Shown: positions 25,483-63,744 of the stretch, one piece after another
Layout of the letters: every line of letters starts with the position of its first letter
Numbering within the stretch: position 1 is the first letter of the stretch
Assembly (NCBI RefSeq): GCF_965363235.1
Contig: NC_134843.1
Location: 49,037,535 to 49,101,534, forward strand
Source: Mytilus galloprovincialis
Taxonomy: Eukaryota > Mollusca > Bivalvia > Mytilida > Mytilidae
DNA length: 64,000 bases
Direction: 5' to 3'
Program-made: the position numbers and the translations under genes
The notes under the pieces: model-generated
Told to the model about the DNA's origin: nothing
The model's database searches: none
What the model saw: the letters and a program-made list of their open reading frames with translations, nothing else

Positions 25483-26666
<1,184 letters not shown>

Positions 26667-31860: not shown

Positions 31861-31883
31861 AAAATTAAGGCTATTGGTACTTT

Positions 31884-31929
31884 ACGGAACGGAACGGAAC
31901 GGAACGGAACGGAACGGAACGGAACGGAA
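31884..31929 (+). repeat. GGAAC pentamer array at the left end
   Basis: About nine head-to-tail CGGAA/GGAAC units follow the terminal motif. The right end (39930-39955) has about four, and each 328-bp unit has three, so the pentamer number varies between copies. Confidence 0.9.
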
Positions 31930-32201
31930 TTTCATTTAAGGTATCCAAAGGGGGCATTTATCAAAATTTCGAAAAATCTTTAAAACAAAACAAACTTTAA
32001 AATTTCTGTGTTTTACGGTTTTCCATATACAAATAACACAAATGTATACTTAATCTCATCTTCACAGGTGAAATGTGTAATAATGTATAACATCGGGAAA
32101 TATTCTGTAGATGAATATGTCGGATTGTCCTGATAAATTATCATGAAATTAACGCATTTGCAAGTCATGCATTATGATATCTAGACTGACCTCACGTCGT
32201 C

Positions 32202-33431
32202 CTTGATTAGAGACAGTGATCAAGTTGAATCTGATTTAAACTTTTTAATTTATTTTTCCGTTCCGTTCCGTTCCGCAAAGTACCAATTGCTCTGAGGAAT
32301 TGGTATTTAACGGAAAAAACGGAAACAGACATCTTTAATGTAATTAAAGCAGTATGATAACAAAAATTGTCTGACACCTCTTTTTGCATGAGTGGTATGT
32401 GTTTTAGATAGCATTTTCGACTTGATCAATAATAAAAAATTTAACACAAAGGCAGGTTACACAAAAAGTCTTTCTCCTTCCATCGGTAATTATATTTTGA
32501 AAAAGAGGCCTTCAACAGCCCGTTCCGACGATGATTAGAGACAGTGATCAAGTTGAATCTGATTTAAACTTTTTAATTTATTTTTCCGTTCCGTTCCGTT
32601 CCGCAAAGTACCAATTGCTCTGAGGAATTGGTATTTAACGGAAAAAACGGAAACAGACATCTTTAATGTAATAAAAGCAGTATGATAACAAAAATTGTCT
32701 GACACCTCTTTTTGCATGAGTGGTATGTGTTTTAGATAGCATTTTCGACTTGATCAATAATAAAAAATTTAACACAAAGGCAGGTTACACAAAAAGTCTT
32801 TCTCCTTCCATCGGTAATTATATTTTAAAAAAAGAGGCCTTTAACAGCCCGTTCCGACGATGATTAGAGACAGTGATCAAGTTGAATCTGATTTAAACTT
32901 TTAAATTTATTTTTCCGTTCCGTTCCGTTCCGCAAAGTACCAATTGCTCTGAGGAATTGGTATTTAACGGAAAAAACGGAAACAGACATCTTTAATGTAA
33001 TTAAAGCAGTATGATAACAAAAATTGTCTGACACCTCTTTTTGCACCTCTTTTTGCATGAGTGGTATGTGTTTTAGATAGCATTTTCGACTTGATCAATA
33101 ATAAAAAATTTAACACAAAGGCAGGTTACACAAAAAGTCTTTCTCCTTCCATCGGTAATTATATTTTAAAAAAGAGGCCTTCAACAGCCCGTTCCGACGA
33201 TGATTAGAGACAGTGATCAAGTTGAATCTGATTTAAACTTTTTAATTTATTTTTCCGTTCCGTTCCGTTCCGCAAAGTACCAATTGCTCTGAGGAATTGG
33301 TATTTAACGGAATCAACGGAAACAGACATCTATAATGTAATAAAAGCAGTATGATAAAAACAAGTCAGACCCTTCTTTTTTGAATGAGTGGTAAGTGTTT
33401 TAGATAGCATTTCGACTGGATCAATATTTAA
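32202..33431. repeat. Left-arm array of the 328-bp unit, four copies
   Basis: GATTAGAGACAGTGATCAAG recurs at about 32205, 32532, 32862 and 33202. The third-to-fourth step is longer (about 340) because GCACCTCTTTTT is duplicated near 33043-33055. The fourth, innermost unit is more diverged and stops at the family B-type end (33432). Confidence 0.9.
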
Positions 33432-33489
33432 ATAAACAGCTGCGCCATGAGCGCATGATACGCCCGTCGTCTTGTGAAAAAACATTTTA
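33432..33489 (-). repeat. 3' end of a family B-type element at the inner edge of the left arm
   Basis: AATAAACAGCTGCGCCATGA-GCGCATGATACGCCCGTCGTC is the inverse of 37080-37130, the 3' hairpin end of the element at 36344. Only the last 55 or so bases are here; left and right arms stop matching inside it, at ATGTTTTTTCACAAG. Confidence 0.8.
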
Positions 33490-36240
33490 ATGTAAGTGCG
33501 GTTCTACCCACACATCAACCTATCTTAGAATGAAAATGACCTTTATTTTACACATGAGGAATGTCAGGGAATGAAACTGTACGTGTATTGCTTGGCCGCT
33601 CAAGTCCTCTTGATTTATAACGGATTAAGAAACAAATTGAAAACATGTAAGATTATTTGCAAAAGTAATTGCATACATTTAATTCACTGTCCGTGTCACT
33701 GCTAGTCATGATAGCCCTACGATACAAACATTTCACTAGATTTTTTCGGGACAAACTAACATGTAAATCAAAGAATTTCAAAGAAAACGTTGTCGGATAA
33801 GTCCGAAAATTAATAAGTGCGCTTAGACTAAGAATGTTTTAAGGGTTTTATCAAACGAAGTTATGGGAAAGAAAAGAACGAAAATAGAATGCTTTTTGAT
33901 ACACTCTTAAAAGGACCCTTAATGCATTCTTTGTGTAATCGTAAACTATGACTTACGAAGACTTTAAGAGAAGTTTCTTGTTACCGCGGGCCCCTGTATC
34001 ATGAAAACCTATCTTAAGTTTCATTTAAGAGAAAACGCTTTACAAGAAGATTACGATGGTGATAAGAGAGTATCTGCAATCCCCTCGTGGGTTATCTTAA
34101 CAATTTAACGGCTATCTTAGTATACACTTACGATAACTAGTTAAGATAGCCCTATTATCGACTTCGAAGTAACCGTCTTTGATTTCTAAGAGAATATTAG
34201 TATTTGCGGCAAAATCGGTATTAAAACTAAAGTCGTCTACTGTATGTGTTTAAAAGAATGCTAAAAATATACTATGATTCGTTTTTTGTTGCAGACTCTA
34301 CATCGACTGTCAAGTAAAGCCCTGTTTAATGCTCCTTTCTGGCATAGATAATAAACGAATATTCAAGTTAATAAATTCTATTCTTCAAAAACACATCTAC
34401 ATGGAATGGTAACAATAAATCAAGAGAACAAATCAACTAACATATCATACAAATACGGAATGCAATCCGCAATACGAAAAACCCCATAACTGGTTAAGGC
34501 GAGATAACTCTCTTAAAAGGATGTTATCTTTACCAAACGTCTTGACCATACCAAACTGACATATAACACCTGTTCATTGATAATTTGTATTATTCTATGT
34601 ATTTTTTGTGATTTTGTCCCATGTACATTTTACTTCATAACTCTTTATTAACATACTGTTTGTAGATTTTGTTTACTGATATGTAATAATACGTATCAGT
34701 ATTACCACCGTAGGTATAGTGTCCGGTTGAGATCGTGTTTTTTCGAGTGATTTGATCGGGTTTTTTCGAGAGCGTCCAGTTTTTTTCGAGAGATTATGAC
34801 TAAAAATGTAAACAAACATACATGTTTTCCTTTAACACGTAAAATAAATGCTTAAACTAAATTTACAAGATCAAACAAGTTAAGTAAGTATTTGTGATGA
34901 AAGGATGTTGCCAACCATACATACTTTGCAGTTAAAAAAGTTTGATTTGGCCTAATAATGCTTTTATGCCAAAATATAGAAAAAAGCAATTTCTATACAC
35001 ATACCAATGCAAATTTCAAAGAGCATGCACACATGATGTCTTTATATCCTTACATTTACATATGCTATAACAAAAGTTTTAGTTATTGTAATTAAAAGGC
35101 AATTTTAAGGGTATATTCATTTCCATCTGTCCAAGTTTTTTCGAGACCAGTTCGGGTTTTTTCGAGAACAGTTCAGGTTTTTTCGAGAGATAAACCAATT
35201 TCTTACGGTTTAAAATGTGCTATTTAAGTACATTTGAGTTTAAAAACGAATGAAAAGTCATCGGTTCTTTCAAAGTTTATAACTAATGCATTACAGCAGT
35301 TTGATAATGTTGCATAAGCACATACATTTCATAAAAAAAAAACATAATTTATTTCTATATATTGTTGTTTTGCATTATGAATTGCATGGACACCGGTATG
35401 CTTTATACCTATATTATTTGGATTAATCAAATCTACCTATGTCTATAGAAAAAAATGTTCACATCATGCATGATCACTGTATTCAAAGGACACTGGTTAA
35501 CGTATGGTTAGATCAATCAAACATATTGCCATCCATGTTATTGAAATGACGGAACTAAGCTAGCATGCTGATGTCCAGATAAACATATTGCATAGATCCA
35601 AATATACGTATATCGATATGGAATTTATGTGATTTAAAAAATCTACATTTTAGAGTGCCATGGATTTTAAGCTGAAACTATTCGTAATTTGAACAATCGT
35701 TTTGTGGGCACGGTCAAGTTTGATTGATATTTAAGTACGCATTGCTTTTGCGCCAATTCTTAAAAGTTGTAGTTTTTCATTTGCGCCAAAAAATAAATAT
35801 TGCTTCTGCTCCATTGTGCAGGTAAACTAATTAAAAAGTGAAAATATAGAAAATTTAAACAATATCTACGGACACACCAGCTGTCGTCAGGAGATAGGAG
35901 AAAAAAAACAGATTAAATACGGAATGCACCTCTAGAACCGAAATTTCCCGCTGATATTATAGTAAGACCTTTGCCTATAGGTTTTGTAACAGAACAGACT
36001 TTTAGTTTTTATAAATACTTTGATTAACAGCAGTTATTATTGTGGTTTTATGACTTTTAAGGAGTTACCATTTTTTATAGTGCTTTGATAAATCCGAAAA
36101 TGTTTTAACAATTTGCAAACATTTTTTTATTATAGTGTAAACCAGTGTTTAGTGCTCATATTTTTATGAAGATATATTTTAAACATATGTTTTAATATTT
36201 ATGAGACCTTGTTTCTAATATAAAATTGAGAATGGAAATG
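33490..36240. other. Single-copy spacer of the foldback element
   Basis: No transposase-like or other recognisable frame on either strand. GGCTATCTTA (34108) and TAAGATAGCC (34143) form a small inverted pair. Two clusters of a TTTTTTCGAG motif lie at 34736-34795 and 35133-35190. A truncated head of the AATTGAGAATGGAAATGGG repeat ends the spacer (36223-36242). Confidence 0.6.
34736..35190 (+). repeat. Two clusters of a TTTTTTCGAG motif, three copies each
   Basis: First cluster: GTTTTTTCGAGTG, GGGTTTTTTCGAGAG and a third copy with one extra T, at about 22-bp steps (34736-34795). Second cluster: AAGTTTTTTCGAGACCAGTT, CGGGTTTTTTCGAGAACAGT and CAGGTTTTTTCGAGAG at about 20-bp steps (35133-35190). 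All six are on the same strand, about 400 bp between clusters. Confidence 0.85.
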
Positions 36241-36242
36241 GG

Positions 36243-36343
36243 GATCACTGTTTCTTATCATCTTCGGAAGGCCCCTTTTTTAATTTATAATTACCAATGG
36301 AAGTAGAAAGACCTTTTGTCTAACCTGTCTTTGTGTTATTTTT
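36243..36343 (+). repeat. Diverged partial 328-bp unit
   Basis: GATCACTGTTTCTTATCATC followed by TATAATTACCAATGGAAGTA and GTCTTTGTGTTA matches the unit (GATCACTGTCTCTAATCATC and so on) with more changes than units in the array. It is the left half of the innermost right-arm unit, split by the element that follows; its right half resumes at 37130. Confidence 0.75.
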
Positions 36344-37129
36344 TATACGTCCGTCAATTTTGACGGGACGTATTATGGTATACAAATGTCCAGTGTCCGT
36401 CCGTCCGTCCGTCCGTCTGTCCGGTGTAAACATGTCGCACCGTAACTTGAGAACGACTTATCCAAATTTCATGAAACTTAACATAGTTGTTTCTTATGAT
36501 GGTCAAATGATCTGTATACTTTTTTGTGAAAATAAGATTACAACTTTTTGAGTTATGGCACTTTGTAACTAAAACAGGGGTGTGTTTTTTTCACATGTCG
36601 CACCGTATCTCAAAAACGATTCTTGATTATGGCTTAAAACTTTAAATTCTTCTTAGTTATATTAATCTTAATATCTGTATACTTTTTGGTGATGATTCAA
36701 AATTTCATTTTTGAGTTATTGAGTATTTTGTAAAAAAAAAGGGGGGGGGGTACATGTCGCACCATATCTCAAAAACGATTTATGATTATTGCTTAAAACT
36801 TTACACACTTCTTTGTTATATTAATCTAAAGATCTGTATACTTTTTGGTGATGATTCATTTTTATATTTTCGAGTTATTGAGTTTTTTGTAAAAAAAGAG
36901 GTTTTTTTTTCACATGTTGCGCTGTATCTCTATTGCTTAAAACTTAACAGGCTAATGTTGCGTCGGGTTTCCAAATACATCTTGTACAATCTTCCTATTG
37001 AGCGGGAATAAGGAATGAGTCAGGATATACTAAGCATGACATCCTGTACAACCCTGTGTTATTCAAAAAAGATTTATGTTTTTTCACAAGACGACGGGCG
37101 TATCATGCGCTCATGGCGCAGCTGTTTAT
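36344..37129 (+). mobile_element. Helentron-like element of family B type, inside the foldback right arm
   Basis: Starts ATACGTCCGTC-ATTTTGACGGGACGTAT (terminal hairpin) with CCGTCCGTCCGTCCGTC. Monomers of about 160-170 bp start at CATGTCGCACCGTA (about 36431, 36594, 36753). The end is ACGACGGGCGTATCA followed by TGCGC-TCATG-GCGCA (37106-37120) and GCTGTTTATT. The short frames at 36333 and 36754 are this repeat. Confidence 0.7.
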
Positions 37130-39658
37130 TTAAATATTGATCCAGTCGAAATGCTATCTAAAACACTTACCACTCATTCAAAAAAGAAGGGTCTGACTTG
37201 TTTTTATCATACTGCTTTTATTACATTATAGATGTCTGTTTCCGTTGATTCCGTTAAATACCAATTCCTCAGAACAATTGGTACTTTGCGGAACGGAACG
37301 GAACGGAAAAATAAATTAAAAAGTTTAAATCAGATTCAACTTGATCACTGTCTCTAATCATCGTCGGAACGGGCTGTTGAAGGCCTCTTTTTTAAAATAT
37401 AATTACCGATGGAAGGAGAAAGACTTTTTGTGTAACCTGCCTTTGTGTTAAATTTTTTATTATTGATCAAGTCGAAAATGCTATCTAAAACACACACCAC
37501 TCATGCAAAAAGAGGTGTCAGACATTTTTTTTTATCATACTGCTTTAATTACATTAAAGATGTCTGTTTCCGTTTTTTCCGTTAAATACCAATTCCTCAG
37601 AGCAATTGGTACTTTGCGGAACGGAACGGAACGGAAAAATAAATTAAAAAGTTTAAATCAGATTCAACTTGATCACTGTCTCTAATCATCGTCGGAACGG
37701 GCTGTTGAAGGCCTCTTTTTTAAAATATAATTACCGATGGAAGGAGAAAGACTTTTTGTGTAACCTGCCTTTGTGTTAAATTTTTTATTATTGATCAAGT
37801 CGAAAATGCTATCTAAAACACATACCACTCATGCAAAAAGAGGTGTCAGACAATTTTTGTTATCATACTGCTTTAATTACATTAAAGATGTCTGTTTCCG
37901 TTTTTTCCGTTAAATACCAATTCCTCAGAGCAATTGGTACTTTGCGGAACGGAACGGAACGGAAAAATAAATTAAAAAGTTTAAATCAGATTCAACTTGA
38001 TCACTGTCTCTAATCATCGGCGGAACGGGCTGTTGAAGGCCTCTTTTTTAAAATATAATTACCGATGGAAGGAGAAAGACTTTTTGTGTAACCTGCCTTT
38101 GTGTTAAATTTTTTATTATTGATCAAGTCGAAAATGCTATCTAAAACACATACCACTCATGCAAAAAGAGGTGTCAGACAATTTTTGTTATCATACTGCT
38201 TTTATTACATTAAAGATGTCTGTTTCCGTTTTTTCCGTTAAATACCAATTCCTCAGAGCAATTGGTACTTTGCGGAACGGAACGGAACGGAAAAATAAAT
38301 TAAAAAGTTTAAATCAGATTCAACTTGATCACTGTCTCTAATCATCGTCGGAATGGGCTGTTGAAGGCCTCTTTTTTAAAATATAATTACCGATGGAAGG
38401 AGAAAGACTTTTTGTGTAACCTGCCTTTGTGTTAAATTTTTTAGTATTGATCAAGTCGAAAATGCTATCTAAAACACATACCACTCATGCAAAAAGAGGT
38501 GTCAGACAATTTTTGTTATCATACTGCTTTAATTACATTAAAGATGTCTGTTTCCGTTTTTTCCGTTAAATACCAATTCCTCAGAGCAATTGGTACTTTG
38601 CGGAACGGAACGGAACGGAAAAATAAATTAAAAAGTTTAAATCAGATTCAACTTGATCACTGTCTCTAATCATCGTCGGAACGGGCTGTTGAAGGCCTCT
38701 TTTTTAAAATATAATTACCGATGGAAGGAGAAAGACTTTTTGTGTAACCTGCCTTTGTGTTAAATTTTTTATTATTGATCAAGTCGAAAATGCTATCTAA
38801 AACACATACCACTCATGCAAAAAGAGGTGTCAGACAATTTTTGTTATCATACTGCTTTAATTACATTAAAGATGTCTGTTTCCGTTTTTTCCGTTAAATA
38901 CCAATTCCTCAGAGCAATTGGTACTTTGCGGAACGGAACGGAACGGAAAAATAAATTAAAAAGTTTAAATCAGATTCAACTTGATCACTGTCTCTAATCA
39001 TCGGCGGAACGGGCTGTTGAAGGCCTCTTTTTTAAAATATAATTACCGATGGAAGGAGAAAGACTTTTTGTGTAACCTGCCTTTGTGTTAAATTTTTTAT
39101 TATTGATCAAGTCGAAAATGCTATCTAAAACACATACCACTCATGCAAAAAGAGGTGTCAGACAATTTTTGTTATCATACTGCTTTTATTACATTAAAGA
39201 TGTCTGTTTCCGTTTTTTCCGTTAAATACCAATTCCTCAGAGCAATTGGTACTTTGCGGAACGGAACGGAACGGAAAAATAAATTAAAAAGTTTAAATCA
39301 GATTCAACTTGATCACTGTCTCTAATCATCGTCGGAACGGGCTGTTGAAGGCCTCTTTTTTAAAATATAATTACCGATGGAAGGAGAAAGACTTTTTGTG
39401 TAACCTGCCTTTGTGTTAAATTTTTTAGTATTGATCAAGTCGAAAATGCTATCTAAAACACATACCACTCATGCAAAAAGAGGTGTCAGACAATTTTTGT
39501 TATCATACTGCTTTAATTACATTAAAGATGTCTGTTTCCGTTTTTTCCGTTAAATACCAATTCCTCAGAGCAATTGGTACTTTGCGGAACGGAACGGAAC
39601 GGAAAAATAAATTAAAAAGTTTAAATCAGATTCAACTTGATCACTGTCTCTAATCAAG
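37130..39658. repeat. Right-arm array of the 328-bp unit, eight copies
   Basis: Seven copies keep an exact 328-bp step (37503, 37831, 38159, 38487, 38815, 39143 and 39471 mark the same point), plus a diverged innermost one from 37130. Linked variants (TTTTATTAC, CATCGGCGG, TTAGTATTG) recur every third unit, giving a 984-bp higher-order repeat. Each unit carries inverted ATTGGTA motifs around the linker CCTCAGAGC. Confidence 0.92.
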
Positions 39659-39979
39659 GACGACGTGAGGTCAGTCTAGATATCATAATGCATGACTTGC
39701 AAATGCGTTAATTTCATGATAATTTATCAGGACAATCCGACATATTCATCTACAGAATATTTCCCGATGTTATACATTATTACACATTTCACCTGTGAAG
39801 ATGAGATTAAGTATACATTTGTGTTATTTGTATATGGAAAACCGTAAAACACAGAAATTTTAAAGTTTGTTTTGTTTTAAAGATTTTTCGAAATTTTGAT
39901 AAATGCCCCCTTTGGATACCTTAAATGAAATTCCGTTCCGTTCCGTTCCGTTCCGTAAAGTACCAATAGCCAAAATTAA

Positions 39980-42400
39980 TACAAATTTGTAGAGATCTAT
40001 GCAGATGTTATAAAAAGCATATATGGACAACATTCCATTATATATAAACTGAAACATGCAATGAAGGCCGTACCAGTGGGATTTCCAGTGACACTAGAAC
40101 AATAGAAAAGTCACTCTTCTTATGAAAGAGATAGAAAAGGTCTAAGAACAGGAGAGACAATTTACGCATAAAACCCGATATGCATAGGGATGAATATCTC
40201 TCAAAACACAAAACCATTATATAACTTTTATACAACCACTATAAATAAAGTATATGTTAAAGCTAAATGTGTTAATATATGATTTTTAAATTGCCAAACA
40301 TGCTGTTAATTGAACAACCTATTGTTCAACATAGGGGTGTGTAAAAAACTGCCACATTTGACTGCATATTTTGCTTTTTTTTTGAAAAAAATATATATCA
40401 AACCTTAATAATGTAGCTTTCTGGGTATCCAATTTTTAACGTGTTCCGAAATGTAGTTTCGTCACAAGAATTTTTCAAAGTTGTGTCATTTTGTCTATAT
40501 GAATGTCGGTAAATTCGTATGATCGAGCACACCGACAAGTATATCGTTGGGACAACTCGATATAATGTAATCAATATACGTGAAAGATTACCTAATGTGA
40601 AGTTTATCAAAATCATCATAACATAATTGATCAACACATTATGTTTGAACAACATGAGTCCTACAATATAAGATTTAAAGGTGCATATCATTTACATTCA
40701 ACGTTTTTATTGGATTTTTTTTACTACAATGTAACCTCGAGGTTCAACGTTGATAGTAAAAAAAAATCCCAGAAATTTTTTGAATGATATTGTAAATGAT
40801 ATTAACCTTCGAATTCTTATAACATCGGAATAGAAAATATGTGATCCAAATTAACCATGCACGTGTGCTACAGAAGATTATGAACTTTTATGATGTACAG
40901 GGGGTAAGGGTTTTTCTTAAACAATATTATGATCCCAAATTTGATGAATTTTGTTGGCAATACTTTAATATACACACTACATACAGCAAAGTATATATTA
41001 AATCTCAATGTATTATAATTAGGAAAAATGTTTGACTCGGTAAAAAAAATCTTCCCCCTCCCCCCGTATTGCATGTAATGGTTTAAACCTAAAGGATTCG
41101 CACTAACTGCCTAAAAGGGGTCCGCTCCAGTCTTGAATCAGTGATTTTTTTTATCATAAACAAAATATTCTCACACTGAAAGGGTCAGCCGGGCAACATG
41201 CACAGCCCGGATTGTCAAAACAACTAAGATTTACAAAAACGATTACAAACAAAAACCATCAGTTGGACAATCTTACTGGAATCTGATTATCTCTACTGAT
41301 AAATAATGCAACACTAATGACACATTTAAGTTTTGGAATGATTTTATTCACAAAGAATGTTTCTCATTGGTATACATTTCTATGCTCTTGTCTTTTCAGA
41401 GTTTATATTGGAAATTAAAAATTGCTGCATGAAAGACAGTCACACTAGCTCCACATTCCTATGCATATGATTTTATATGTACGAGAATCATTCCATAAAA
41501 TATCCGTTTGATATCCTTTCAATGCATGACACTGTCTAGTGGTTTTTCTGCCACAATTACAAGGAAAACCTGGCTAAACTTGTGCTAAATCAAACACTTG
41601 AATCTTACATCGCTATTGATGTTAAGCAATTATTTACAGGGCCATCCGGAACTGTTGGGTTTTATGACAGTCTTCCTTCCATACACACCATCGCTGCAAA
41701 ATAATTTGAACATTCAATTAGATGATTATAATATTATTTGGCAATCCAAAGAGAACCTGAAAACATCAGACCACAATAAACAGAGACCCTAAAAAAAGCC
41801 AATTTTACTTTAAAATGAAATTGAAGAAGTAGTTAGTTACATGTCAAATCATCTTTTGGCTGTCGACAAAAAATAAATAAAATCTAAATTTCGTAGCATT
41901 TTACCACCCCCCCCCCTTTTTTTAACTGAATTTGTTCAAGGTATGGTGGTTTTACCCCTTTTCAGATTTCAGTATGTCATGTTGTATATCTTTTATAAAT
42001 TAGATGAATTTCTAGCAAGTTTCTACGATATTCTTTATCATTTGACAAAATACTATGCATCTGAATTAAATTGTTTACTATTTGAAAAAGCGCGACTTCT
42101 TTTACTTTTGTAACGTGTTTGGCTTATGAACTATATGTTCGTATCCGTTTTCACAGAATCTGAGACACTCCAATATCAATCTTTTAATTAACTCAAAAAC
42201 CCAACTACAACTTGGAGGCTTTACTTAAAACTACAAGACCAACTTTGAAACTTAATAAAGAAATAACACTATTTACACAAATAACTTTGTATCAAAAAGT
42301 AGTCTGAAAACTAGAACCTCAATTTATCCTTGATCCTTTCACTGACTCCGAGGTCCCAACTGATTTGACAAACAATTATATTAAACTTAAGAATAAGCTT
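39980..42400. other. Intergenic, mostly unrecognised
   Basis: Holds a hairpin at 40687-40800 and a phrase ACTGCCACATTTGACTGCAT (about 40350) repeated at 43142. A fragment GGTCCGCTCCAG-AATCAGTGATTT (41117-41150) belongs to the repeat seen at 50040. Frames at 40398-40691 and 41598 have no family likeness. Confidence 0.4.
40687..40800. repeat. Palindromic hairpin centred on ACCTCGAGGT
   Basis: Around the centre (about 40738) the halves match imperfectly outward: AACCTCGAGGTT, CAATGT against ACGTTG, GGATTTTTTTTACTA against TAGTAAAAAAAAATCC, and at the edges ATCATTTACA against TGTAAATGAT. Total about 114 bp, probably a small palindromic MITE. Confidence 0.7.
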
Positions 42401-53400: not shown

Positions 53401-55818
53401 CCCATGAAAAGACCACGATCGTTATTTTCGTTGTCCGTAGTTTGGTATTTTGAACATGTCCCTTTATTTATGCTATTGTTGAACTGATTGTAACTATGAT
53501 TCAAGTTTTTTGCCCAGGCATCAACTACCAAACTTACTGCCGTGTGGGCCATGGCATTTGATTACACTGAGGTTTAGTGTAGAACTAAATAAGTCTCGTA
53601 TCTGTAAATATGCACAGAATTCAAACTCTTGTTATAGTAATTTCCTTGCTAGTCTACTCATTGTTAACTGATACAAAACCAGTAAAAATGACATCTGTCA
53701 AAATCAACAAACAATGAAAGACTACCACTGGACCTTTATGGAAACTCCTTCTTTTTCATGCCAATCTTTCTCAACTAAATAATCTTTTTTTTTACTTACA
53801 CATTTTAGCAGACACTTATTACACAACTGTTGACCTCAATAGTATAAGTATTATTTTAGAAATGATAGATCTACACTACAAACATTAAACTAAACATTAT
53901 TCTGTAAATAATACTTAAAAGATGAACGATTACGCATTAATAAGGTATTTTTTTTAGAAGAAAGCAGACATGAATTAATCTTGTCCTATACCTGCACATT
54001 TATTCAACAGTGCACGTAAAGCAACCTCAAAGTCAAGCTGCTTTACGCGATAGAATTTATGATTGGTGCTTTTATATCATGTACATTTTGTATCAGTAAT
54101 ATTTGAGACAAATATTATTTCTAAGACGTGCACATTTTATTAATTGTTTATACAACATGCGTGTACTGTTTCACAAGCAATTTATCATACAAATCCTCAA
54201 ATCAGTTAAATCGATAGTTAATAATTTCCTATGTCTATAATATTGAACATGTGGCGTGGTTCAAGTAGGGTTTTTGGTGTCTCAAATGTTTTGAAAATTA
54301 TACTCCGTCTCCATACTTATTTTCGAATTTTGGTGGCTTCACTTACAACTTTCTTAAGTTATGTCCCTTTATAATGGAAAAATGCTAAATTTGTCATTTC
54401 CGCACTCTTAACTTGTGTTTGCCTCAACCAAATGGTATAAAACAAGTTAGACACAATGATTATTTACACCAAACACAGATTAAGTTGGAAATTGGATGGC
54501 GCCACATTTTTGCGCCTGTCCCAAGTCAGGAGCCTCTGGCCTTTGTTAGTCTTGTATGATTTTAAATTTTAGTTTCTTGTGTATAATTCAGAGTTTAGTA
54601 TGACGTCCATTATAACTGAACTAGTATAGATATTTGTTTAGGGGCCAGCTGAAGGACGTCTCTGGGTGCGGGAGTTTCTCTCGCTACACTGAAGACCTAT
54701 AGGTGACCTTCTGCTGTTGTCTGTTCTATGGTCGGGTTGTCTCTTTGACACATTCCCCATTTCCATTCTCAATTTCACTTTCACCGTTCTCGAGTTATGT
54801 CCCTTTATAAATAGAAAAAATGCTAAATTTTTCACACACAATCTTGCTTTACTTTGCCTCAACCAAACGTAATGAAGCTTATACTCTATGCTTATTACCA
54901 CCAAGCACATACCAAGTTCGATTTTGGGAGACGTGACCACTTTCACCGTTCTCGAGTTTTGTCCTATTTTAAATTGAAAAAATACTGAATTTGCATTATA
55001 TTTACAAGCGAGGAATTAACTTGTGTCCCATGGAAAAATTCCTCTATCATCCTCGATCTCAACTCTTCCTCTAAAAAGATTAAATTGATGTGTTTAAAAA
55101 AAATATCAAAATATCAACCGGTTTCATTTTATAAAATAAGAAATGGTAGCTTTAGAACTAAATGCTCGCATATGCTTACAAGACATCATATATGAACAGC
55201 AACACACGATTCTTCGAAACACGCTTTCATAACGGAATTATATAATACATGCATAACGTGACCTTAGTCTTAATACTAAGAACTTGATGATGGCAGATGA
55301 AATCAATCAACCACGAAAGATTGTTGTCAGGAATCATAATCAAATGTATTTTCTGATTTCAGGTAACGTTATGGGATACAGGTGGAATGGAGAGAATGAG
55401 TTTCATTGGTTCCAGCTTTTACAGAGGTGCACATGCTGCATTGTTGTGTTATAGTGTGAAAAACAAGGAAACATTCACAGTTCTGTCTCAATATATCCTC
55501 GACATTGTGATAAATGCGGAAGGCGCGAAAATATTTTTGTGCGGCAATATGGCGGACGGCGAAGGAGAGGACCAAGTCGATAAAGCAGACATTGAAAATT
55601 TTGAACGAGAATGTGGGAACGTTTTGTCAGGTGTTTATCAGATTTCATGTAAAGACAATATGGGCATTTATGAAATGTTCAAAGACATTGCCCGGGTGCT
55701 TCACCAAGAATCAGTGGGTAGAATGACATTAAGGCGGGAAATAGGAAATGTTATACGACCAGGTATCACACCGGAAGGTGAAGAACCATCTAAAAAACGG
55801 TGTTGCAGTAGTAGTTAG
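50415..55818 (+). CDS. Atypical Rab-family small GTPase, Rab24-like (210 aa from the ATG at 50422)
   Basis: Exons 50415-50598 (ATG at 50422) and 55363-55818, joined across a 4,764-bp GT-AG intron with frame kept. Seen: P-loop GEYGVGKS (14-21), a switch I Thr in KKSTIG, G3 as WDTGGMER (63-70), YRGAHAALLCY, G4 as NMAD (121-124), G5 as SCK (154-156), and a C-terminal CCSSS that could be geranylgeranylated. Rabs recruit effectors to membranes when GTP-bound. Here the catalytic Gln is Met (68), the Ala before it is Gly, and the NKxD Lys is Met (122). Rab24 is the closest by eye: it also lacks the Gln, has CGTKSD at G4 and a CC-plus-residues tail. Slow or absent GTP hydrolysis is inference. The C-terminal exon has no further intron. 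Confidence 0.85.
52124..52305 (+). repeat. Dispersed repeat, copy 2 (GGTACCAATTTTTCTGCACC family)
   Basis: Matches 10165-10345 from GGTACCAATTTTTCTGCACC to GCTTTGCATGAGGGAGAT with a few small deletions. Confidence 0.65.
54290..54990 (+). repeat. Family H monomers split by a reverse SINE-like element
   Basis: Monomers share GTTATGTCCCTTTATAA, GCTAAATTTTTC and GTTTGCCTCAACCAAA, at about 54358 and 54795, with a third beginning near 54953. Between GGCGCCAC (54505) and CACTTTCACCG (54775) sits the inverted AATTGAGAATGGAAATGGGG repeat (about 54512-54774). Other family H monomers are at 26230-26425 and 45560-45935. Confidence 0.65.
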
Positions 55819-60223: not shown

Positions 60224-63200
60224 TCATCGGATATCGTATCTAAACAGTACCAAATAATCAGTCCTATCTAATAAGTTTCCAGCAATATCAAATGCTTCCC
60301 CCGTGTTTGGTGTAGTAGTTGTTAAAATCCACTCACTTCCCTCCTTTGTCATCACTTGTCCATTAGCTGTCGCTGATACAACTATCGATGATCTCAATCT
60401 ACATGTTACGCTAGAATTTGCAGGAAGTATACCGTCTAAAGGCCCTATAAGAACACAATTGTAATCTTGTGTTGCTTCGAAAGTTGTTGGGAATGGTAGG
60501 CATGGATTTGCTGGCGCAGTGCAATCTATGAGAAATGTTCCTGTCTTGTGATGCTTGGAATCTGTTTCGGAGAATATCGTTAGTTTATAATATCCCATAA
60601 AAGGCAATCTCAAAGTTACATTGAACGAATGATTATCACTGTTAACAAGTGTACATTTCGCTTCGTCTGGCATATTATCTTCAGAAGTTAATTTCACGGA
60701 CCGCTTATGAATTTTGTATGTTGGGAAGCAAAGTGTTGCCTCGCCCTTTACTTTATACATTACCGGCACCAATTCAGCACCATTGTTTTGAAATCCATAA
60801 TTGTTGGCGTCGGAAACAAATCCCCATAAACCATCGGTCTTTGGAAATGGTTTAATATCGCCGATGCAATCTGACTTTATAGTGTACTGAAGTAAAAGAG
60901 GAAGATCTTTTGCCTTGCTATTGTCATGTCCGTATATATTCAAGTGATAGAGTCCTGGTGGAGGTGGACTTATTGTAACTGTTATTTCTTCGGTCTTTTC
61001 TTTGCGAATAAAAATATATTCTAATCCACCATCCGTTCTATTTGAAAGCCTGTTCATTGTAGCTTTACAACTTACAATGCAATTTTTCATGTTTGAAATC
61101 TTGATATCAACAAGTTCATGAACGATGATTACCTCTCCTTTGTGGGATAAAGGCTGTATCCCTAGTTGTTTTGCAATTTCTGTTATCGGCACCTCTTTTT
61201 GTTGATAATTACACACCAAATCCCATTCTTTGCTTTCCTGAATGATATTTGAAATATCAGTCCCATCAATCCGTTTGCCACTTTTAGATAAAATTTCGTA
61301 TTGGTATACAGCCCAATATTTGGCTTCATCCTCTGTTTTTCCACTTATACGAAATTCATCACCTGGACATGGTGTAGTAACAATAGCAATGTATTCGTCG
61401 TCCATCCTCTCCATCTTTTCACCACCCAATTGAAATGTTTTCCCAATTGACGATTTAAGTCTAAAAGTTATAGTTGATTGTGCAGGTAAAAATCTCGAAG
61501 TAGGCTCAATTAAGCTACATGACAATGTTTGAGTGGATTCAAATGTCATAGGAAATGGCATGCATGGTTTACTTGGTTCACGGCTGTCTATTAGAAAATT
61601 AGCCATTTCAAAATACCGCCCATCATCAGTTTCCTTCGTAAACTTTTTAAACAATAAAGTAAGTTTGTAGTAGTCCTGAAAGGGAAATTTTATTTTCACT
61701 TTCAAACAGTCTTCTGTGCTTTCAAAAATACTATAGTCTTGTCCATTTAGTAATGTATTATTGGCCGGTTCTAGTTTAGATAACGAGTAGACTTTTTGTT
61801 CAGTGCGAAAACAAATCTCTAAATTTCTGTTACATGTATGAAATGAAGAAATAGTATATGCATTGTCGTTGTGAAGTCCAAGAATAAATGCTTCAGGCAG
61901 TATACCCCAAACACCGTTGTGAGAGGGATATGGATTTACCACAAGTCCCCCTTTCATTGTAGATACAATGGTGTAATCTAGTAAAAGTTTGTATGTTTTA
62001 CTCTCTTTGTCAATATGCCCAAATAGTTGCACTGTATATGTTCCAGCTGAAGGTGGACGAATTGTTATTCTAACTTCATCGGGATGTTCTTTTCGTAGAA
62101 ATATATATTCGTTCAGTTTAATAAATTCCCTTGATTCATGGAAAAAATCGACGGCGTAAACTAATCTGTCCATACTTTCTATTGCTATGATTTCAACTTC
62201 ATCATCAATTCTTATCTTGAAACTTGTATGTGATTTTGGTATTAATCCCCATTGCTTGGCATATTTTGTCCTTGGATCATTAACATTTGGTGTATTTGTT
62301 GTAAGTCCACTTCTCTCTAATGAATCATTATTGTTTAAATTATTCAAATCTCCCGTCTGTTCGATGCATTGCTCAATCGAATGTTTCATGTTTTCACAAG
62401 GTATCATGAAGCGACCTAGCAAATTTTTCATTATTCCTTTCGAACTTTCCACGGTTTCATAACCGAACAAGCTACACCAGTTTCCATCTTGACAACCATT
62501 CCCCATGATGTTGACCGCTTCACCAGGATTAGGTGATGTTATGTCTACAATCCATTCATCGCCCACTTTTTCCATCCTTTTCCCGGAAATATTAGCCATT
62601 TGCAGAATGTTAGATTTCATCCTAAATCTAATTTTTGTACCAGCAGGTATTTGTCTGTAGACAGGTTCGATTATGGTACAGTTAAATTCATTTGTATCCA
62701 AAAATGTCTTTGGAAACGGAATGCACGGTACTGCAGGTTCGGTGCAATCGAGCATGAAAATGGCCATGGCGTGGAACTTATCGTTTACATTCACTACTGG
62801 CTTCAGATATAATGTAAGTTTATAATAGTCAGTGAACGGAAAGCGAACCTTAATAATCAAAACATCATTTTTGCTTTCTGCAAATGCATATCCTTCATCG
62901 CCATTTAAATTATTTTGAGCAGAATGAAGTTTCACTATTGCGGGAGTTCTTTTTGTAGTCTGCAAACGAATTTCCGTTTCCTTCTTGACACTTTGCAAGA
63001 CTGGAACACTATTCCCCTTGCATAATCCGCAGTCATAAGCCTCTAGTTTGATTCCCCATAACCCATTTTCTTGTGGAAATGGTTTCAGGTCAGAAATACA
63101 TAAGGATTTTATAATATATTCCATCATCATAATAACCGTGTCTGTATTTTTATCAGTTTGCCCATACAGTTTTAGTACATATTTCCCATACGACTTAGGT

Positions 63201-63744
63201 CGTACTTTTATATTAATTTCTGATGTGTTTTCTTTATGAACGAAAACACTGCCACCTTCTTCGCGGTTTCCGTTATTCGTATTCAGAAAAACTGCTTTGA
63301 TTATTGACAGTGTTTCATCAGTATCCAGTAAGATTAGATCTAATGGTTCTGTCATGCCAATAATTCCATGCTTATGAGATTTAGGATAAATCTTCCATTT
63401 CATTGCTTGAGGTGTTAGTTTTATATTCTTACTAAATTCATTTATTGATACTGGTGTTGGAAGCAGTTGCCATTCACTGCTTGTTTTTGGATTATCAGTC
63501 ATATATGGAAAGTGTGTGTTTATCAGGTGATATGGGTTCTGTAAGGAAATAAAAATCAGTTTGACTTTCTTCGACATGGATCCCTTGAACTCCCCATGTA
63601 CAGTCAATGAGAAACCACTTTTCATTAATTTTCACGGCGTTCCAAGAGTGATCTCCTTTTGTGTCCAAAGTAAATGTTTTCTCAGCTGAACATTTGGAAT
63701 TTTTTGTAAATCCGTGTAAACATTTTACTTCCACATGTACATAA
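60224..63744 (-). CDS. Kyphoscoliosis-peptidase/hillarin-like protein, 3' exon (5' end outside window)
   Basis: The last exon begins at 63744 after acceptor CTTTCAG and ends at TGA 60224-60226. It opens with the end of a transglutaminase-like fold: GDHSWNAV (catalytic His) and WFLIDCTWG (catalytic Asp), then DFYFLTEP. The catalytic Cys must be in an upstream exon. About 1,110 residues follow as three tandem modules of about 330-380 residues (roughly 63430-62390, 62270-61280 and 61180-60230). Each has Ig-like blocks with WGL-P-SH, YIFLRKE--DE--ITIRPP-G, PFP--NGLWG, FPF-DYYKLT, PCxPFP-TF and FRLKSS. KY and hillarin act at muscle Z-discs or the cytokinetic cytoskeleton; whether this one is catalytic is unknown. 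Between FLTEP and YHLINTHFP the frame changes by one base at the CCC on the minus strand (63534-63536), either a sequence error or a real break. After it, 1,100 codons stay open. Confidence 0.85.

Follow-up and report, generated by a model that had tools for sequence, protein, structure and literature searches.

A recently mobile family of foldback transposons with tandem-array arms in a mussel genome

The window, i.e., the whole 64,000-nucleotide stretch of mussel DNA analyzed here, contains one 8.1-kb transposable element (31869-39971) with ends GGCTATTGGTACTTTACGG, a sequence found there once in each orientation, at 31869 (+) and at 39953-39971 (-). It is flanked on both sides by an exact 8-bp target duplication, AAAATTAA (31861-31868 and 39972-39979); at the given base composition, an exact 8-bp match would arise by chance with a probability of ~4e-5. 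Two inverted arms, 31869-33485 on the left (1617 bp) and 37076-39971 on the right (2896 bp), follow one plan: an outer domain, an array of 328-bp units (3 full units on the left, 7 on the right), and a shorter inner unit. Both the foldback structure, with tandem-array arms of 1.6 and 2.9 kb, and the exact 8-bp duplication had been proposed in a preliminary description of this DNA, and both were borne out. The features are as follows.

31861..31868, no strand: left copy of the target-site duplication AAAATTAA, 8 bp
31869..32203, + strand: left outer domain, 335 bp, with the 19-bp terminus, 9 ACGGA pentamers, and ~275 bp with no difference from the right outer domain
32204..33200, + strand: left array of 3 full units (328, 329, and 340 bp), each with two back-to-back terminus-like sites
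33201..33485, + strand: left inner unit, 285 bp, its end diverged
33486..36242, no strand: unique part of core A, 2757 bp, without a credible coding frame
36243..36345, - strand: diverged fragment of a 328-bp unit within the core, in right-arm orientation
36430..36930, no strand: ~160-bp tandem repeats within the core
37076..37360, - strand: right inner unit, 285 bp, with one mismatch to the left inner unit
37361..39656, - strand: right array of 7 units, 328 bp each
39657..39971, - strand: right outer domain, 315 bp, with the terminus and 5 pentamers
39972..39979, no strand: right copy of the target-site duplication, 8 bp

The element thus has the long inverted arms with internal tandem repeats that characterize foldback transposons. 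The two outer domains differ in pentamer number alone, and each 328-bp unit carries two terminus-like sites placed back to back with a 5-bp gap (3 bp at full end length). Overall, 14 terminus-type and 12 second-type sites lie inside the element and 0 elsewhere in the window, and the stretch that the unit shares with the outer domain (33/35 identical) sits at the terminus itself. The “2.75-kb unique spacer” described earlier holds for the unique part of the core, whereas the arms themselves lie 3590 bp apart: after 36242, the core continues with the diverged unit fragment and the ~160-bp repeats (36243-36930), and this fragment (spacer positions 2757-2862) matches units of other copies at 77-90%.

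We then looked beyond the window, searching the 1.385-Gb genome for the end sequence with ≤1 mismatch. This yielded 186 ends (93 + 93, with 0 for the control), therefore roughly 90 copies. Listings of ends covered ~100 places each, with C7-C14 poorly represented, and the 100 ends listed comprised 44 convergent pairs and 12 singles. For 47 end pairs with both flanks read, we found 26 exact 8-bp and 18 exact 9-bp target duplications, 3 pairs without one, and 0 duplications of 10 bp, while 0 of 2070 mismatched flank combinations gave a duplication match. This flank test omitted one of the 44 listed pairs (C5:62.14 Mb), the length of which equals that of its neighbor at C5:61.37 Mb. As expected for foldback elements, the copies are discrete insertions at unrelated sites with their own target-site duplications (44/47 pairs), so that the family predicted in the preliminary description, with the same constant ends and flanking duplications at other places in the genome, does exist. 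Two of the refuting conditions named there, differing ends and flanks lacking duplications, were checked and did not overturn this reading, the 3/47 pairs without a duplication notwithstanding.

Copies range from 0.8 to 52.8 kb in length and contain several kinds of core. The arm tip, used as a query, gave at least 41 genome matches (best 40 of 196 candidates scored), and most or part of core A recurred at at least 30 places including the window (best 40 of 775 candidates scored), with 96-100% identity, in agreement with the recent activity suggested before. Relaxed end patterns, with 100 places listed by each, added one extra foldback copy, plus a 15-bp match that had no pairing end (C6:33468354). 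Five stretches with ends but without a perfect outer domain were also read: four were foldback arms, one with its outer domain partly deleted, and the fifth was a diverged relative, read over 2.1 kb. No empty site of the window copy was found, its left flank matching itself alone (best 40 of 266 candidates scored). The right flank of the window copy runs into another young repeat. Taken together, these data establish a foldback family that is real and recently mobile.

None of the copies read contained a recognizable transposase, consistent with the non-autonomous nature proposed at the outset. The window element has no stop-to-stop frame longer than 98 aa, and a Pfam scan of 28 of its 59 frames of ≥45 aa (all 18 within the core, most of the repeated array frames being omitted) returned two weak matches, the best with an E of 0.056 and neither meaningful. 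The shortest copies (5.4, 1.4, and 0.8 kb) had no noteworthy frame, although a fragment of a reverse-transcriptase-like frame was present in the longest of these (5.4 kb), and the 2.1 kb read from the diverged relative likewise held no recognizable transposase. The 52.8-kb pair was considered as an autonomous copy and rejected: the 47 kb fetched represent a core-A element that contains a frame judged by eye to be reverse-transcriptase-like, together with a tandem array of ~1291 bp. Two further copies on different chromosomes, E1 (C2) and E11 (C1), have 5.67 kb of core in common (99.3% identity), mostly a nested LTR-retroelement-like insert; their flanks do not match each other and their duplications are different. 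Most likely, composite copies of this sort, larger than 15 kb and carrying a retroelement-like insert nested inside, moved as a whole.

Across copies, the number of units per arm varies from 0 to 19. Among 195 full units, as counted with BLAST, the nearest neighbor lay in the same element at a frequency of 0.452, compared to 0.078 on average when the labels were shuffled, and units at mirror positions were closer to each other than to other opposite-arm units in 11/14 elements, the exceptions being E9, E13, and E14. In the diverged relative, the outer domain is 73-76% identical, the outermost 31 bp are unchanged, and the 2.1 kb read contains a single back-to-back terminus joint. The diverged cluster includes three more members with a match that extends over the end (best 40 of 4842 candidates scored); these are absent from the ends with ≤1 mismatch, so that one of the four such members retains the exact end.

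We interpret the family, with a probability of roughly 0.92, as a non-autonomous cut-and-paste DNA transposon of the foldback type, new as a family though not as a kind. The GGCTATTGGTAC...CGGAACGG ends would be bound by a transposase that a different element supplies and, since we found no partner that shares them, mobilization by a transposase encoded elsewhere is what we infer. The back-to-back pair in each unit would provide extra putative binding sites that gather transposase and pair the arms. With two terminus-like sites per unit, the arms may raise the number of transposase-binding sites, by analogy with Galileo, in which EMSA identified extra sites in the arm repeats (PMC3688188). The arrays would expand and contract through unequal exchange, and gene conversion, acting in part from one arm of an element to the other, would keep them alike. 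Back-to-back termini also have the look of the joint of an excised, circularized element, and arrays may have begun so. We regard it as a long shot that the transposase itself made this joint, with the family as the first Merlin-superfamily foldback and the single-joint relative as the pre-amplification state; if true, the transposase would build its own binding platform.

As for the partner of this foldback transposon, a Merlin (IS1016-like) transposase, which would make the family a Merlin foldback, is our tentative first candidate at just under even odds; a transposase of the Mutator-like (MULE/Phantom) type, which has been proposed to move most foldback families, comes a close second, and the remainder falls to others. 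Merlin ends are all described as beginning with GG, with duplications of 8 or 9 bp (PMC8101967), a pattern matched by the GG foldback ends and by the duplication lengths reported above. Merlin transposase domains gave 48 genome matches (63/63 candidates scored), and one of eight Merlin places fetched, L102, combines an open 359-aa frame with a Merlin domain, GG/CC ends (12/20 positions match), and an exact 8-bp duplication, these ends coming from a search over GG/CC pairs with a duplication in all eight. Its left end shares TACTTTA-CGGA with the foldback end at nearly the same position; however, the likeness is not significant (shuffles reaching it: 0.064 for the left end, 0.70 for the right), and the other seven places had no such ends. 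Tandem repeats of 8 bp accompany the frame in two of the Merlin loci: L099 has them on either side, oppositely oriented, and L098 on one side. A Mutator-like partner has its precedent in Tm1, a Phantom-type foldback of root-knot nematodes described with composite tandem-repeat arms and 8-10-bp duplications, mostly of 9 bp (PMC3169594). MULEs are numerous in the mussel genome (at least 140 matches, best 150 of 324 candidates scored), and the foldback duplications lie within the 8-10-bp range, but 8-bp duplications are commoner here than 9-bp ones and 10-bp ones are absent. One MULE, L107, has an open 441-aa frame with a MULE domain, ends that begin with GG (21/25 positions match), and an exact 8-bp duplication, so that GG together with 8 bp cannot separate Merlin from MULE in this genome. 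Neither transposase was found between the foldback ends: on C1-C6, 0/23 Merlin (DDE_Tnp_IS1595) hits and 0/61 MULE hits (best 150 of 324 scored) lay inside the 44 paired copies. In the four MULE places retrieved, no sequence came closer to the 19-bp end than 5 mismatches, and comparison of Merlin and MULE termini with the foldback end gave no significant match. We found no description of a Merlin foldback in the literature.

Near-perfect inverted arms are a known product of chimeric long reads, and an assembly artefact, i.e., a palindrome falsely created by a foldback read or a collapse of repeats, could in principle imitate this architecture. We give it next to no weight: it is contradicted by exact duplications belonging to the individual copies at 44/47 different places, and the arms are unequal in unit and pentamer number around an asymmetric core. 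Array lengths may still be inexact, most of all in the ~1291-bp tandem array that the 52.8-kb copy carries. hAT and P elements make duplications of 8 bp or fewer (7-8 bp in the P superfamily, including Galileo), and their ends begin with CA. By these family rules, the hAT- or P-type mover hinted at in the preliminary description, although compatible with the 8-bp duplications of 26/47 pairs, is disfavored by the 9-bp duplications of 18/47 pairs and by the GG ends, which fit Merlin or Mutator-like transposases better. The long arms of Galileo and its internal repeats with transposase-binding sites (PMC3688188) speak for such a mover, which we nevertheless consider very improbable.

A foldback family on a chromosome-scale assembly makes the role and growth of long repeat arms testable: copies with 0-19 units per arm can be ranked by recency to ask if transposition increases with arm length, and the constant end gives a lead to the recognition sequence. 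With so many nearly identical inverted arms, the family is also likely to give rise to inversions. Sea urchin TU elements offer a first comparison, with long terminal inverted repeats, a tandem-repeat outer part, and 8-bp duplications, their repeats being ~15 bp versus 328-bp units in the mussel family. Tm1 (Meloidogyne), as described, shares the composite tandem-repeat arms, several element classes with common ends, and 8-10-bp duplications, but its repeats are 13-15 bp and it includes a transposase-bearing member with the same ends (PMC3169594), for which no counterpart was found in the mussel copies. The Merlin superfamily shares GG termini, 8- or 9-bp duplications, and, in some members, tandem repeats; its reported inverted repeats span 24-462 bp (PMC8101967), compared to foldback arms of up to several kb with no Merlin gene found between their ends. 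Galileo, a Drosophila element of the P superfamily, shares long arms with internal tandem repeats (PMC3688188), whereas the mussel family has 9-bp as well as 8-bp duplications, GG ends, and binding sites that are predicted.

A close parallel in arm plan is described for Tetris, a Drosophila virilis foldback with a flanking domain, tandem units (~220 bp versus 328 bp here), and an inner domain (PMC4079207). According to the same account, Tetris also has a variable unit number, a non-coding middle, 8-10-bp duplications, and a ~37-bp stretch common to the unit and the outer domain, and its autonomous partner was not found (PMC4079207). Three structurally complete Tetris copies are reported (PMC4079207), versus 186 ends and 44/47 exact-duplication pairs in the mussel, where the shared stretch lies at the terminus itself, as a back-to-back pair. 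Tetris units also form free satellite arrays (PMC4079207), whereas the 88 mussel unit places listed on C1-C6 (best 40 of 232 candidates scored) all lie in or beside foldback copies.

The element lies where the preliminary description placed it, and its termini, which at 31869 and 39971 form perfect inverted repeats of 19 bp, are immediately flanked on both sides by the target duplication AAAATTAA. Its arms, previously put at 1.6 and 2.9 kb and mostly made of a 328-bp unit, measure 1617 bp (left) and 2896 bp (right), with a longest ungapped complementary pair of 929 bp at 100% identity. Each arm runs from an outer domain (335 bp left, 315 bp right, differing solely by four ACGGA pentamers) through an array of three full units on the left (328, 329, and 340 bp) or seven on the right (each exactly 328 bp) to an inner unit of 285 bp, which has a diverged end of its own and shows one mismatch between arms. 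The described 2.75-kb unique spacer does exist (33486–36242), but the whole core between the arms spans 3590 bp, the remainder being a diverged fragment of the 328-bp unit and ~160-bp repeats. The spacer had been said to lack a credible frame, and this was borne out: the longest frame inside the element is ≤98 aa, and a Pfam scan of 28 of the 59 listed frames, including all 18 within the core, gave a best E of 0.056. Tandem repeats of ~160 bp occur both at 1164–1758 and at 36430–36930 of the window and, since 36340–36616 matches 1087–1349 at 68%, the core may contain a repeat related to a dispersed one of ~160 bp.

We searched the 1.385-Gb assembly, in which the window lies on contig C6, for the family. 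The first 300 bp of the arm, the query proposed in the preliminary description, recovered other copies, with at least 41 matches (40 of 196 candidates scored), and family matches were spread over contigs C1–C14. With ≤1 mismatch, the 19-bp end was found 93 times per strand genome-wide, and its reversed control not once. Among the end places listed, the 100 on C1–C6 comprised 44 pairs in convergent orientation plus 12 unpaired ends, one of which gained a partner with one mismatch in a later search. Copy length ranged from 803 to 52,820 bp. Two copies on C5 (61368737–61379873 and 62139179–62150315), 770 kb apart, have the same length of 11,137 bp, and may represent a segmental duplication or two haplotypes that were not merged.

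Both flanks were read for 47 pairs. Exact direct repeats were 8 bp long in 26 of these, 9 bp in 18, and absent in 3, including one near miss (2 mismatches in 8). Of 2070 pairings of a left flank with the right flank of another copy, 0 matched. Hence, the family inserts with 8- or 9-bp duplications: the 8-bp duplication first noted is exact at the window copy and holds for 26 of the 47 pairs, but not for the other 21. The 25 tabulated 8-bp targets have an AT-rich middle and otherwise no fixed sequence.

Copies proved modular. In a BLAST comparison of 17 copies (units ≥150 bp; E11 counted without its right arm, which lies beyond the stretch read, and E13 with a cut right arm), arms held 0 to 19 units, mostly unequal between the two arms, and three kinds of core were recognized among the copies read.

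Core kinds among the foldback copies read (E1–E16, copies other than that in the window)
Core A: window copy, E3, E10, E13, 52.8-kb copy
Core B: E2, E4, E9
Core C: E1, E5–E8, E12; E11 by its match to E1

A ~830-bp segment adjoining one arm is present over ≥730 bp in 13 of the 17 copies and absent from E1, E15, and E16, the read of E11 being too short to include it. Core A occurs at no fewer than 30 genome places including the window (96–100% identity; 40 of 775 candidates scored), and the 16 on C1–C6 all lie between or beside listed foldback ends or outer domains. When copies are oriented by this core, short and long arms fall on constant sides, with 4/8, 4/8, and 3/7 units, and at least 5/10 in E13. 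A 5.67-kb stretch of core is common to E1 (on C2) and E11 (on C1) at 99.3% identity, and the bulk of it is an insert resembling an LTR retroelement (frames judged by eye) that E8 lacks at the corresponding place. Since E1 and E11 have non-matching flanks and distinct 8-bp duplications, they are most simply explained by transposition of a copy in which the insert was already present. The 52.8-kb copy is a core-A element that houses a ~1291-bp tandem array and a frame resembling reverse transcriptase (by eye). This array (C4:92.14–92.18 Mb) adjoins the frame within the foldback copy and covers ~40 kb of the stretch read in pieces >99.7% identical; its length may be an assembly matter.

Arm units are homogenized within elements. 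For 195 full units, the nearest neighbor belonged to the same element at a frequency of 0.452, against a mean of 0.078 and a maximum of 0.137 with shuffled labels. Units differed at 8.13 columns from those of the opposite arm, 8.18 from those of the same arm, and 9.46 from those of other elements, and this equal closeness across arms points to exchange between the two arms of an element. In 11 of 14 elements, all but E9, E13, and E14, units at mirror positions resembled each other more closely than other pairs from opposite arms, and left and right outer domains differed at a mean of 1.5 positions within elements versus 2.25 between them, a small contrast (14 elements). Each 328-bp unit contains two terminus-like sequences facing away from each other, 5 bp apart, the first sharing 33 of 35 positions with the terminus and the second being weaker; the window holds 14 motifs of the terminus type and 12 of the second type, all within the element. 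Unit places listed on C1–C6 (at least 88) were all in or beside foldback copies.

A cluster of diverged relatives at C2:64.27–64.33 Mb (74–87%, with two matches repeating at 11,757-bp spacing) is an old nest of this family. A single end there, at 64.33 Mb, keeps the first 31 bp unchanged beside an outer domain matching at 73–76%, and the 2.1 kb read there contain one back-to-back joint and no array, which favors an end that has been conserved and a unit amplified later. However, three other members with a match covering the end were not among the ends with ≤1 mismatch, and an end exact in only 1 of 4 members counts against end conservation.

No transposase was recognized in stop-to-stop frames of ≥120 aa (window copy, E1–E13), ≥80 aa (three short copies), or ≥130 aa (47 kb of the 52.8-kb copy); these frames were either short and uncharacterized or, by eye, resembled reverse transcriptase or LTR elements. 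The 72 frames scanned from four cores gave two RVT_1 and zero transposase matches. Two superfamilies were weighed as partner, Merlin (48 transposase-domain matches in the genome) and Mutator-like elements (MULE; at least 140), and on C1–C6 none of 23 Merlin and 61 MULE matches fell inside the 44 paired copies. A Merlin (L102) and a MULE (L107) locus each combine an open frame with a transposase domain, GG-starting ends, and their own exact 8-bp duplication, so that end type and duplication length leave the choice between the two undecided. The L102 end resembles the foldback end in a TACTTTA-CGGA core, a likeness that is not significant (fraction of shuffles reaching it, 0.064 at the left end and 0.70 at the right). 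At two further Merlin loci, transposase frames adjoin arrays built from an 8-bp repeat of the GACAGGTC type, on one side (L098) or on both sides in opposite orientation (L099), possibly another repeat-armed element.

We propose that a transposase acting in trans would recognize the foldback ends and would also bind the terminus-like sites in the units, and that arrays may change through unequal exchange and conversion. The Galileo transposase domain binds sites within its tandem-repeat arms (PMC3688188), and the Tetris authors suggest a comparable scenario for that element (PMC4079207). As described there, Tetris also has an outer domain, tandem units sharing a stretch with it, an inner domain, a variable core, and 8–10-bp duplications, and a partner was found for neither element. 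The architecture is that of Tetris, and we thus count the family as a new member within a known foldback type. Among the papers listed on foldback transposons (also with molluscs or Merlin) and on bivalves or Mytilus, none describes this family in its title or abstract. A bivalve transposon survey lists three Merlin and 39 MULE curated consensus elements, all autonomous (PMC10294476), so a non-autonomous family would not be expected in that library.

Just right of the insertion, 40074–40279 and beyond is the start of another young dispersed repeat, whose first ~206 bp recur at ≥38 other places at 99–100% (40 of 266 candidates scored). The window also contains:

26530–26661, perfect (AT)66 microsatellite
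55357–55818, + strand, exon-like frame encoding a Ras-family GTPase domain (PF00071, E 2e-18)
60224–63631, − strand, one open frame, 1135 aa long, that contains KY-like immunoglobulin-like domains (PF23265, E 7e-57, six stretches)
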